From NCBI RefSeq assembly GCF_019209935.1, contig NZ_JAHUTN010000005.1:1-64000 (forward strand): 64,000 bases of DNA. Reading direction: 5' to 3'. This DNA comes from Corynebacterium sp. TAE3-ERU16 (lineage in GTDB: Bacteria; Actinomycetota; Actinomycetes; Mycobacteriales; Mycobacteriaceae). This document shows, one piece after another, positions 11,458 through 16,705 of this stretch. The position numbers were made by a program, and so were the translations under genes. The notes beneath the pieces were generated by a model that was not told where the DNA came from, made no database searches, and saw only the letters and a list, made by a program, of their open reading frames with translations. How positions within the stretch are numbered: position 1 is the first letter of the stretch; the number at the start of each line of letters is the position of its first letter.

Positions 11458-11865
11458 TCAGGCCTGCCCCGGTACCGTCACGAACTGCTCGAGACCCGGG
11501 ATCGGGTTACCGCCGCGGATGACGTAGAACTCCAGCCAGACCGTGAAGCACAGCATGAACAGTGAGATGAGCACGGCCGCGATCGACATGGCGAGCCTGC
11601 GGCCGTGCTGACCGCGGGGTAGCCGCAACGCCCGGCGTACCGCGAGAAGTCCCAGCAGGGCAGACAGGCTGAACAGGATCCACTGGAGTAACGGGTGCTC
11701 CTGGTAGAGCGGGAAACCGACACCCAGGAGACCAGCCACGCACAGGGCGAGGATCGCGATGCCGTTGCCGTCGGGAATGTGGGCGAGGGCGTCGGGGGTC
11801 GAACCACGGGCTGGCTCGGTTCCGGGGTCTCCGGTGGTGGGACGTGGATCAACGGGATGCGACAT
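11458..11865 (-). CDS. Small membrane protein of unknown function
   Basis: Not recognised. The 135-residue protein has a hydrophilic N-terminus of about 35 residues rich in Pro/Thr and three hydrophobic segments (AILALCVAGLLGVGFPL, LLQWILFSLSALLGLLAV, LAMSIAAVLISLFMLCFTVWL), separated by a basic RRALRLPRGQHGRR loop. It follows the gene at 11893 by 27 bp on the same strand and probably shares its transcript. An in-frame ATG at 11874 gives three extra residues; ATG 11865 is chosen because AGGAT precedes it at 7 nt. Confidence 0.6.
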   Translation of the reverse strand: MSHPVDPRPTTGDPGTEPARGSTPDALAHIPDGNGIAILALCVAGLLGVGFPLYQEHPLLQWILFSLSALLGLLAVRRALRLPRGQHGRRLAMSIAAVLISLFMLCFTVWLEFYVIRGGNPIPGLEQFVTVPGQA

Positions 11866-11892
11866 GGTGGTCATCCTAGGGGGGTTGCGCGG

Positions 11893-12432
11893 TCATTCGT
11901 AGTCGACGCCGAGTCTGAGGGCGGTACGTCGTGCCTGCGCCCAGGCATCCCTGAGCTCGAGTGCCCTCCGGTCGGTCACCCCCAGCAGTGTCTCCAGCTG
12001 GGGGATGCTCAGGTCACCGGTGAGTCGTTCGTCGAGACGCCCGAGGAATCGGCGGGCCGTCCCGTACTCGAAGTAGAAGGTCTCGATGTCGGGGTGGCTG
12101 CAGTCCGGATCCGCGAGTGCGGGACGTTTCTGCGAGCGGTCGGCCACCGAATCCGCGTCGGTCCCGTCGCGGAACCGCTCGAACTCCTCGAGGACATCAC
12201 TGATGTCCTCGGCGGACAATCGGATGGAGGTGGCCAGGGACTCCGCCTCCGCACCGTCCGGCCGGTGCCGGAGCACGAAGTAGGCCATCGACATGATCAG
12301 TGCCCCGAGGATGATGCCCTCGAGTTTCAGCCACGCCGTGAGGACAACGCAGAGCAGACCGGTGGCCACCAGCGGCCACGCGGAGACGGGACTGCCGCTG
12401 GTGCTCCGTTCCGGGAGTGCGTCATCGTCCAT
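11893..12432 (-). CDS. Two-TM protein of unknown function
   Basis: Not recognised; 179 residues. Two adjacent hydrophobic segments at about residues 17-35 and 38-58 (WPLVATGLLCVVLTAWL, IILGALIMSMAYFVL) are followed by a soluble, probably helical domain of about 115 residues (AEDISDVLEEFERF, RRFLGRLDERLTGDLSIPQLETLLG, ALELRDAWAQARRTALRLG). GAGGAT precedes the ATG by 11 nt. It sits in a minus-strand group of three unknown genes (11458, 11893, 12505) between dapF and hflX, a position also filled by hypothetical genes in other corynebacteria. Confidence 0.6.
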   Translation of the reverse strand: MDDDALPERSTSGSPVSAWPLVATGLLCVVLTAWLKLEGIILGALIMSMAYFVLRHRPDGAEAESLATSIRLSAEDISDVLEEFERFRDGTDADSVADRSQKRPALADPDCSHPDIETFYFEYGTARRFLGRLDERLTGDLSIPQLETLLGVTDRRALELRDAWAQARRTALRLGVDYE

Positions 12433-12504: not shown

Positions 12505-13251
12505 CTATCCGCATCCGCCGGATCCGCAGCCGCAGCCGCCGCCTCCGGATCCGCAACCGGCGGGCATCCTGACCGCGGCGGTGAGCATGACGGTACCTGC
12601 GACGACCGCCCCCTGGGCGGGCAGCTCCGGTGCATCCGGGAGACAGAGATCCATCGGGAACGGTGCCTCGATGTCACAGTGGATGAAGCGCTGGCCGGAA
12701 AGTGCCGTCGTCCGGTATTCGGCGGAACGGATCTCGGCGGTGAGCGTCGCCCCGGCGTCCGGGACACGTGATCCGTCCCCCGAGAGGACCACAGCGGCTC
12801 CGTGGCTAACCAGCATCCCGACCTCGCCCCCCTTCTCCGCCGTGAAGTCCCCGACTGATGGGTACACGGTGGTGTCCACGCCCAGGGCGGTGATCGCGAG
12901 TTGCTGCCACTGCTGGACATTCTCGTCGACGAGCAGGGGCCCCTGCGCGAGGTTCGTGGTGATGGAGGCGATCTGCTCGCCATCCCCGGTCACGACGTCA
13001 CAGAACGCCAGCACGTCGGTGATCATGTTGACGTGTCCGAGAGCTTCCGTGGTGGATTCGAATCCGGCCCAGGTGGCGAACGGCTCCACCGCCAGGATGT
13101 TGATGCAGGCTCCCGAAGGGTCGGCGAACTGTATCAACTGGCCTCCCCGGACCTCTCCCGTCACCGAGAGTTGTCCGGAGGCGATGGCGGCTTCGACGGC
13201 GTCCTGCCATCGGTCGTACCGGAGGCCGATGCTTGCGAGATCTTCACTCAT
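12505..13251 (-). CDS. Unknown protein with Cys-Gly-rich tail
   Basis: Function not recognised; 248 residues, soluble, no signal peptide. The main body (MSEDLASIGLRYDRWQDAVE ... AAVRMPAG) has alternating strands and helices. The last 17 residues hold five cysteines, four in CGSGGGGCGCGSGGCG, resembling metal-binding Gly-Cys tails. The frame is open up to 14010 but only on the antisense of hflX. The start ATG 13251 is well supported: TAGAAT, a near-perfect -10, ends 7 nt upstream with no Shine-Dalgarno, so the message is probably leaderless. It is divergent from hflX with about 145 bp between starts. Confidence 0.7.
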   Translation of the reverse strand: MSEDLASIGLRYDRWQDAVEAAIASGQLSVTGEVRGGQLIQFADPSGACINILAVEPFATWAGFESTTEALGHVNMITDVLAFCDVVTGDGEQIASITTNLAQGPLLVDENVQQWQQLAITALGVDTTVYPSVGDFTAEKGGEVGMLVSHGAAVVLSGDGSRVPDAGATLTAEIRSAEYRTTALSGQRFIHCDIEAPFPMDLCLPDAPELPAQGAVVAGTVMLTAAVRMPAGCGSGGGGCGCGSGGCG

Positions 13252-13395
13252 GACACCGATTCTAGGTGCTGCTGTCCCGATCGGTTGTGTCGGGGACCCA
13301 CACCCCGAGGAGACCGGTTGACGCGATAGCGGGTACGGCGCCGCGGAACGGTCCCGGTCACTGCGCACGGGGCGTTTGTGCCACAATGGACGACA

Positions 13396-14973
<1,578 letters not shown>

Positions 14974-15139
14974 TCCCCGGATCCCGGGGGAGTGGAACCA
15001 CGTAATCCCACGCCGGCCCGCCCGGGCAGGTAGAAACGATGTGGAGATGCCGGGAACGACGGGTCGACATGCGTCGCCACCCGAGAAGGACCTCTTTTCC
15101 GCGGCACAGTCAATCCGTCCAAGAGAAACGAGCCGGATC

Positions 15140-16705
15140 ATGCGCACGATAACCAGAGTCGTCACCTCGATAGTCGCCATCGGCGTCATCGCCGTCGGCG
15201 GCGTCATAACCTACAACAACCTCAGCAGCCGGGACGGGTCTCTCCATCGGCGTGTCGACGGCGACTTCACACTCGATGAAGAGGTGAATACCTACGCCGG
15301 TCAGACGGAGATCGACTACGCGCCCTACGACAGCATCCTCGCGGATCTGAGTCCGGAGCGACGCCACCAGATCTCCGTCGCCTTCGAGGGGCGTGATCTC
15401 GCCGGGCGGGCGCAGGCGCGGCGGGAACTCCGGGTGACGAACACCGAGGCACTGGCCTACTACGTGGCGAACATGCGGGAATCGAACAGTTACTACCGTT
15501 CGGTCCTGCAGCTCGACCCCGACGCGATCGAGGTCGCCGCGGAGTTGGACGCCCGCGGTGCCGGTCCGAGTCAGGACCAGCCTCTCCGCGGCGCCGTCGT
15601 CCTCGTCAAGGGGAACATCGCCGTCGCGGGACTGCCGAACGACGCCGGCTCGAGAGCACTGCACTCCGCGGTGGCCGAGACGGATTCGCCGCTCGTCGCG
15701 CAACTCCGGGAGGCCGGCGCGATCGTCGCGGGTAGAGCGAACCTCAGTGAGCTCGCCAACTTCCTCACGGTTGACAACCCCAACGGGTTCAGTGCGGTCG
15801 GAGGCCAGACCCTCGACGCGCGGGATCCGTTGAACCGGGACCCCAGCGGCAGTTCGACCGGGTCGGCCACCGCGATAGCCCTCGACTACGCTGACCTGAC
15901 CTTCGGCACCGAGACCCAGGGCTCCGTCATCGAGCCGGCGGTGGCCGCCGGGGTCTACGGAGCCAGGGCCGGCTGGGGCGAATGCGACATCAGCGGTATC
16001 GTGCCGATCGACGACCGTGTCGATTCCCCCGGGGTGTTCGGGCGCAGCGTTGCCGACCTCGTCACCGGATTCCGGTCAGCCTGCGGCATCGATCCGGCGA
16101 AGAAATCGGACAGGGAACTCACCGTCATCGGTTTGGGCCTCGATCCGATTCTGGTAGGGGCCCTCGGGCGCTCAGGGATCACCGTGGTCGAGCCGTCGCC
16201 GGAGCTCGAGCAGAGTATCGCGGAGCTGAAGGAGTTGCCGTTCATGGACGCTCTCGTGGCCGGTGTCGGCACCTCCATGGGGACCTATTTCGCCGCGAAC
16301 GCCTCGGGTCGCATCAAGAACCTCGACGATCTCGTCGAGTACTACCGGGAGCATCCGGAGGCCGCGCCCTACGGACTCAGCCTGATCGAGGCGGGACTGA
16401 CACCACCGATGAGTTTCGGGGAGTCGGACGAGATCCTCGAACGCGGGCGTGAGATCGTCGGAAAGATCAGACGGCAGACGGAGGAACAGGGAGCGGTGGC
16501 ACTGGTCGGCAGGTCCGAAGGACTGCCGGAGATCACCGCAGGCGGTTCCTCCCGCGCGACCGTGCCGCTGATTCCGGTGACACAGAACCTCGCGGTCGAT
16601 GTGTTCGGGAAGTACGCCGTCACCATCGACACCGCCGAGAGCGACACGGCTGCACTGCTCGAGATCGCGCGCAGGGTCGAGGCGGCGCGCCCCTTCGACG
16701 GATAG
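15140..16705 (+). CDS. Membrane-anchored amidase-signature hydrolase
   Basis: Amidase-signature-family hydrolase, 521 residues. Residues 1-30 (MRTITRVVTSIVAIGVIAVG) form a signal anchor or uncleaved signal peptide, so the enzyme probably works outside the membrane. The Ser-cisSer-Lys triad region is present: Lys in VVLVKGNIAVAG, the glycine/serine loop DPSGSSTGSATAIA and the nucleophile strand FGTETQGSVIEPA. The usual KDN is KGN here. Substrate unknown; related enzymes cleave peptide amides, fatty amides or linear nylon oligomers. The open frame runs upstream to 14825 but that part overlaps hflX; ATG 15140 begins the hydrophobic anchor. Shine-Dalgarno weak. Confidence 0.8.
   Translation: MRTITRVVTSIVAIGVIAVGGVITYNNLSSRDGSLHRRVDGDFTLDEEVNTYAGQTEIDYAPYDSILADLSPERRHQISVAFEGRDLAGRAQARRELRVTNTEALAYYVANMRESNSYYRSVLQLDPDAIEVAAELDARGAGPSQDQPLRGAVVLVKGNIAVAGLPNDAGSRALHSAVAETDSPLVAQLREAGAIVAGRANLSELANFLTVDNPNGFSAVGGQTLDARDPLNRDPSGSSTGSATAIALDYADLTFGTETQGSVIEPAVAAGVYGARAGWGECDISGIVPIDDRVDSPGVFGRSVADLVTGFRSACGIDPAKKSDRELTVIGLGLDPILVGALGRSGITVVEPSPELEQSIAELKELPFMDALVAGVGTSMGTYFAANASGRIKNLDDLVEYYREHPEAAPYGLSLIEAGLTPPMSFGESDEILERGREIVGKIRRQTEEQGAVALVGRSEGLPEITAGGSSRATVPLIPVTQNLAVDVFGKYAVTIDTAESDTAALLEIARRVEAARPFDG

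Follow-up and report, generated by a model that had tools for sequence, protein, structure and literature searches.

The gene described here lies on the minus strand of a 64,000-nucleotide stretch of DNA from Corynebacterium sp. TAE3-ERU16, which we call the window. It runs from 13251 to 12505, with its start codon at 13251-13249 and its stop codon at 12507-12505, and encodes a protein of 248 amino acids; the plus-strand frame across the same interval is interrupted by two stops. A preliminary description of this DNA had drawn attention to a 248-residue protein ending in a dense array of cysteine and glycine, and so it proved: the open reading frame ends exactly in CGSGGGGCGCGSGGCG. That tail (residues 233-248, 12508-12555, minus strand), delineated from the reading frame, a structure model, conservation and codon substitutions, has cysteines at 233, 240, 242 and 247 and is predicted to be disordered. 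Ahead of it the model places an N-terminal module, a helix followed by beta strands (residues 1-64, 13060-13251, minus strand), and then two predicted OB-like barrels with weak similarity to MOP/TOBE domains (residues 65-231, 12559-13059, minus strand). By gene order the open reading frame is a probable orthologue of Corynebacterium glutamicum cg2127.

The neighbours are well kept. Divergent from the gene, on the plus strand at 13396-14973, is hflX, recognized by its Pfam domains GTP-bdg_N and GTP-bdg_M. This arrangement had been noted from the start, and it is general: across 80 named loci (the best 80 of 119 stretches encoding a relative, 79 titled Corynebacterium and one, the MAG L130, titled Mycobacteriaceae bacterium) hflX is present in 79, always upstream and divergent, at a distance in five. 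The next gene on the same strand, DN1 (11893-12432), encodes a conserved membrane-type protein of 179 amino acids found in 75 of the 80 loci; it matches no Pfam family, and it carries a strongly conserved ADRTLHRPAL-like stretch. The gap between the two genes is 72 nt in the window and has a median of 24 nt over 45 non-redundant loci (3-252 nt in 44 of them, 666 in one), and the two are possibly co-transcribed as one operon. Other companions in the named loci are miaA (75) and dapF (68). DN2, a small membrane-type open reading frame at 11458-11874 (minus strand), is shared by just three of the 80 loci, those of the closest relatives. By eye we also noticed an amidase-like open reading frame at 14825-16705 on the plus strand, between hflX and uraA; in another genome of the genus, G064, uraA comes straight after hflX and a query with the amidase found no match.

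A -10-like box, TAGAAT (13259-13264, minus strand), stands 7 nt before the ATG as part of a leaderless-type promoter. The same architecture recurs, with a TANNNT box 6-8 nt upstream of a start codon in 79 of the 80 named loci (4-9 nt allowed) against 16 of 80 in a control shifted 40 nt upstream, where both tests allowed several candidate starts per locus, so that some single assignments may be wrong. Leaderless expression of the gene, as originally proposed, is therefore likely. In C. glutamicum, 33% of mRNAs are reported as leaderless, with TAnnnT -10 boxes (PMC3890552), so this architecture is usual for the organism. A sigma-70 consensus scan, which also requires a TTGACA-like hexamer, missed the TAGAAT site. 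The conserved promoter is of the housekeeping type.

That the gene is real follows from its breadth and from the way it changes. Relatives (E <= 0.001) occur in 240 of 242 Corynebacterium genomes, bearing out the impression that the protein is conserved, and in every one of the 235 with completeness of 90% or more and contamination of 5% or less; completeness is 53% and 77% in the two genomes that gave no match. The gene belongs to the Corynebacterium core. When it is compared with its counterparts in three close relatives, substitutions at first, second and third codon positions number 7/7/71, 15/7/93 and 17/11/86 over the whole open reading frame and 0/0/7, 0/0/7 and 2/1/9 in the tail alone, where changes are thus again mainly at third positions. 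Relatives that bear species names include C. meridianum (94%), C. pygosceleis (92%) and C. marambiense (90%), which identify the genus.

Beyond the genus the trail ends. A draw of 301 genomes across the family gave matches in 30 genomes of the same genus and marginal, partial ones in three of the 271 others. In the draw searched with a 16-row profile (A1), all 16 genus genomes matched and the 185 others from the family did not; a second profile (A2) produced a single match, at E 0.149, among 15 genomes. Among these 271 and 185 other genomes of the family, profile searches included, there was no convincing relative. The three marginal matches were dropped; by eye their open reading frames read as C-N hydrolases of the nitrilase-like kind. 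Second matches also occur within Corynebacterium genomes; the two that we inspected, L059 and L158 from two genomes, are paralogues of the body, both without the tail and neither with a Pfam family.

The protein had been presented as one of an unknown family, and family-model searches left it so. Pfam, searched to an E of 1, has no family for it, its one NCBIfam match is meaningless (E 0.049, with 13.4 bits where the cut-off is 33), and nothing significant emerged from PHROGs or PDB sequences. Over 46 relatives, Pfam again gave nothing significant: five families appeared at E up to 0.1, none of them MOP or TOBE, including FliW in three rows (best E 0.014). The NCBIfam matches to the same relatives were also weak: GcvA in three rows (0.0023), FliW in five (0.0074), phage_HTJ in four (0.048) and three more families. 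With no significant model in Pfam or NCBIfam, the 248-residue protein belongs to no known family in these collections.

What, then, is conserved in the tail? We compared 121 distinct proteins, taken from the top-scoring hits and a divergent set as well as the 80 named loci (rather than from all 240 genomes), and, having dropped the paralogue L158, worked with 120 distinct orthologues. Every one of them carries a tail with four to seven cysteines (four in 90, five in 27, six in two and seven in one), so the Cys/Gly tail is not a matter of chance. CxC occurs in the tail of 117, and histidine is the last residue in 106. Spacing is another matter, with many classes; the commonest is 2-3-1 (30 of the 120), followed by 5-4-1 (11) and 5-1-4-1 (10). 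Tail length runs from 11 to 47 amino acids, with 71 distinct tails among the 120. In two orthologues, L005 and L178, a second Cys/Gly block follows a linker, that is, the tail has been duplicated. Another, L086, ends in CSSGHL, so even the terminal pattern is not fixed. When the orthologues are aligned, cysteine is found at the window protein's position 233 in 116 of 120, at 240 in 108, at 242 in 40 and at 247 in 119; cysteines of the body vary more (203 in 102, 84 in 43 and 99 in 29). Alignment had been suggested as the way to see whether the tail cysteines are conserved: a count of at least four stood in 120 of 120, and fixed spacing did not. Of the two grounds named in advance for refutation, cysteines that are not kept or a missing tail, neither applied.

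Retention within the tail was 0.942 for cysteine, 0.925 for glycine and 0.747 for other residues, in 45 non-overlapping pairs (mean body identity 0.83, each pair counted in both directions) with tails of the same length, a selection biased towards similar tails. The tail cysteines are therefore held about as tightly as the glycines, not more. Cysteine count is kept while spacing and length vary, and what we would infer most strongly from these sequences is that constraint on the tail acts on the number of thiols (at least four), as expected for a flexible thiolate site, rather than on their spacing or on length. Such free geometry with four or more thiols would be less expected of a classical zinc finger, or of low-complexity sequence at random, than of redox-active thiols or a flexible polythiolate site for metal.

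A common form of the ending can be followed by an exact pattern. Of 61 Corynebacterium genomes, 35 have CGCGGH followed by a stop, at 36 sites in all; the 30 sites we inspected (L159-L188) terminate orthologues of the 248-residue protein, as judged from the last 60 residues, and one further site (L191, genome G076) closes a 52-residue frame that is unrelated by eye. The window protein's own tail ends in CGSGGCG and does not match the exact pattern. Among 296 genomes drawn across the phylum the pattern turned up in one. That sole occurrence (L189, G598) is in a zinc-ribbon open reading frame of another actinobacterium, ending GGCGHGGCGCGGH. We read it as FmdB-like from its two CxxC pairs; its tail is nearly the same as that of many orthologues and its body is unrelated.

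An AlphaFold2 model, built with 46 sequences, predicts a confidently folded body (mean pLDDT 88.7, pTM 0.84) and a disordered tail, with residues 232-248 at pLDDT below 50. The N-terminal module has residues that are invariant in all 120 orthologues: W15, E33, G37, Q38, D44 and G47. For the rest of the body, Foldseek against the PDB gave no match at E <= 0.001, its best being a weak one to ModE (E 7.8e-3, TM 0.29). The best VIA-align match was also weak, with Z 6.0 and an rmsd of 3.8 over 114 residues. Rows 1-24 of the 50 matches listed, with Z from 6.0 to 3.7, are molybdate-binding proteins or ABC-ATPase chains and cover residues 64-232 at 7-15% identity and an rmsd of 3.8-5.1 Å, where a Z below 8 may reflect just a common arrangement; from row 25 (Z 3.6) the list is mostly of the N-terminal part against assorted proteins. 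We take the matched regions of these molybdate and ABC-ATPase structures to be MOP and TOBE domains. Residues 65-231 thus weakly resemble, in topology only, a pair of OB barrels of the MOP/TOBE type.

The link to physiology comes by way of C. glutamicum. In the 3,309,401-bp genome G064, which we take to be that of C. glutamicum ATCC 13032, the order is uraA-hflX-gene-DN1-dapF-miaA, with no further gene evident between them. Published numbering has cg2125 as uraA (PMC2230225) and cg2130 as MiaA (PMC4979012), and the gene should therefore be cg2127 if the identity assumed for the genome holds; by gene order, the orthology is probable. Of the C. glutamicum papers searched, just two name cg2127 in their main text, each in an expression table and as a hypothetical protein (PMC3489674, PMC4510997), and what those tables record is a rise with the activity of SigH, the thiol-stress factor. 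There cg2127 is 2.35-fold up in a microarray table for deletion of rshA, which encodes the anti-SigH factor (PMC3489674), and has M-values of 1.1 and 1.8 in one for sigH overexpression (PMC4510997). The latter table also contains mtr, mshC, trxB, trxC, sufB, a HesB-type protein, lipA, ilvD and ispG (PMC4510997). By the same numbering DN1 is cg2128, which is absent from both SigH tables (PMC3489674, PMC4510997).

Across the 80 named loci there is no conserved SigH-type promoter upstream of the gene. Sixteen of them have a simple SigH motif, at scattered positions, where mononucleotide shuffling leads one to expect 4.7 and five of the 16 are near-identical relatives. Upstream of the gene in G064 there is no SigH motif with a gap of 15-20 nt, just a GGAAA/GTT pair with a 14-nt gap. 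SigH may therefore act on cg2127 indirectly; the SigH paper itself lists 26 of its units without a motif.

How might such a protein work? The reading we prefer, to which we give a probability of roughly 45%, is that the tail binds metal with a redox response, a flexible thiolate site on a cytosolic core protein. With at least four cysteines conserved in the tail, the protein probably holds metal or senses oxidation. It would be a Corynebacterium core protein, probably located in the cytosol and produced constitutively from a leaderless mRNA, in which a small N-terminal beta module and two OB-like barrels carry a flexible C-terminal arm of four to seven cysteines, usually with histidine last. 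In a reducing cytosol the thiolate cluster of the arm would bind a soft or transition metal, most probably zinc or an Fe-S cluster. When thiols are being oxidized and SigH raises expression of the gene, those of the arm would themselves become oxidized or mycothiolated and the metal would be let go, and its release would either switch a binding activity of the body or serve to buffer or deliver metal. Cytosolic location, metal binding, redox switching and a partner for the body are what we infer here. There are points against this. Cysteines of metal sites are usually fixed in spacing and these vary, and they are kept no better than glycine (0.942 against 0.925). The SigH part has to contend with a conserved promoter of housekeeping type and with a neighbour, cg2128, in neither SigH table; the part concerning the body's fold has to contend with a weak structural match (no Foldseek hit at E <= 0.001, best Z 6.0). 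A fuller version, in which the protein is a genus-defining metal or Fe-S handler whose OB-barrel body bears a swinging polythiolate arm, is raised with SigH and, during thiol stress, acts as a buffer or donor of zinc or Fe-S clusters, is one we hold tentatively and consider doubtful as a whole.

Two other readings are close rivals of metal binding with a redox response, each of them unlikely in our estimation. One is that the tail is an arm for Fe-S cluster delivery or storage, a new kind of Fe-S carrier that cooperates with SUF. The 90 orthologues out of 120 with exactly four cysteines in the tail, and the 117 with CxC, would suit it, as would the company of sufB, the HesB-type protein, ilvD, ispG and lipA in the sigH-overexpression table (PMC4510997). 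Set against these are a variable cysteine spacing, a neighbourhood of hflX, DN1, dapF and miaA rather than suf, searches of Pfam and NCBIfam that hit neither A-type carriers nor any other Fe-S family, and the finding that most suf genes fell below the threshold of the rshA-deletion paper (PMC3489674). To carriers of A type there is some likeness. The C-terminal motif of IscA, SufA and HesB is CGCG-like, as is the end of the tail; the number and spacing of cysteines differ, and neither the window protein nor its 46 relatives match a HesB/IscA domain in Pfam or NCBIfam.

The other is that the cysteines form disulfides or mixed disulfides with mycothiol, in oligomerization or thiol protection, with no metal involved. 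The number of thiols is conserved and the geometry is not, and the tail is predicted to be disordered, both of which count for this reading. CxC pairs and a terminal histidine are more typical of metal ligands, and their frequency here speaks against it. Genes for mtr, mshC and trx share the SigH tables with cg2127 (PMC4510997, PMC3489674), a link that counts in its favour.

It had also been suggested that the tail could be modified. On this reading it would be a substrate for modification after translation, by thiazole/oxazole or other cysteine chemistry of the sort known from microcin B17 or from peptides made by MNIO enzymes. The composition of the tail, Gly/Cys/Ser/His, does resemble the core of microcin B17, and the end of the protein is rich in Gly, Cys and Ser with a histidine, as in the thiazole-oxazole peptides; here, unlike those, it is borne on a folded body of about 230 residues. 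The suggestion is weakened for the two enzyme classes searched. In the window's own 99.75% complete genome there was no match for YcaO (PF02624) or for MNIO (PF05114), in searches that were positive in five and two of 14 control genomes, respectively, and we rejected modification by enzymes of either class on that ground. The gene, besides, is part of the genus core and sits among housekeeping genes, and modification of the tail in general seems to us very improbable. Least likely of all, and largely contradicted, is that the tail is neutral low-complexity sequence arising by slippage in GC-rich DNA, which its variable length and spacing and its DNA (repetitive to the eye) might suggest, but which sits badly with a cysteine count never below four in 120 sequences, with third-position bias inside the tail and with the two paralogues examined (L059 and L158) lacking it.

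Among actinobacterial proteins, a useful comparison for metal binding with a redox response is the FmdB-type protein Ruc. Ruc (Mycobacterium tuberculosis Rv0991c) is a redox-regulated zinc-binding chaperone with four cysteines in an N-terminal zinc ribbon (PMC7448276). The two have in common four cysteines and a disordered C terminus (here a predicted one), and the FmdB-like L189 shares nearly the same Cys/Gly ending with many of our orthologues. They differ in where the cysteines lie: in Ruc in the zinc ribbon, in the 248-residue protein in the disordered tail of a body predicted to be beta-barrels. We found no sequence relation between them. Residues 1-64 of the window protein contain one cysteine, C49, with no cysteine column in this region common to at least 20 of the 120 orthologues, and Pfam's Zn_ribbon_8 matched neither the window protein nor its 46 relatives; the N-terminal four-cysteine ribbon of the FmdB/Ruc type is lacking. 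As for FmdB as a partner, or as a function replaced, Zn_ribbon_8 has matches in five of 41 genus genomes, above the cut-off in two, and in the window's own genome one below it (25.6 bits against 34.4) inside a 680-residue open frame. The body invites a different comparison, with ModE, ModG and the C-terminal domains of ABC ATPases. Like these MOP/TOBE proteins it is modelled, on a weak match, with paired OB-like barrels in residues 65-231; unlike them it has an extra N-terminal module and a cysteine tail, and no Pfam MOP/TOBE match.

Here, then, a genus that includes an industrial workhorse and several pathogens has a core gene whose product nevertheless matches no Pfam or NCBIfam model significantly. 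If the polythiolate arm is what we take it to be, selection would have acted on the number of its thiols and not on how they are spaced, and the arm would be a metallothionein-like module joined to an unrelated fold. And should the tail prove to be a module for metal or redox, the thiol and metal homeostasis of corynebacteria would gain a component specific to the genus.
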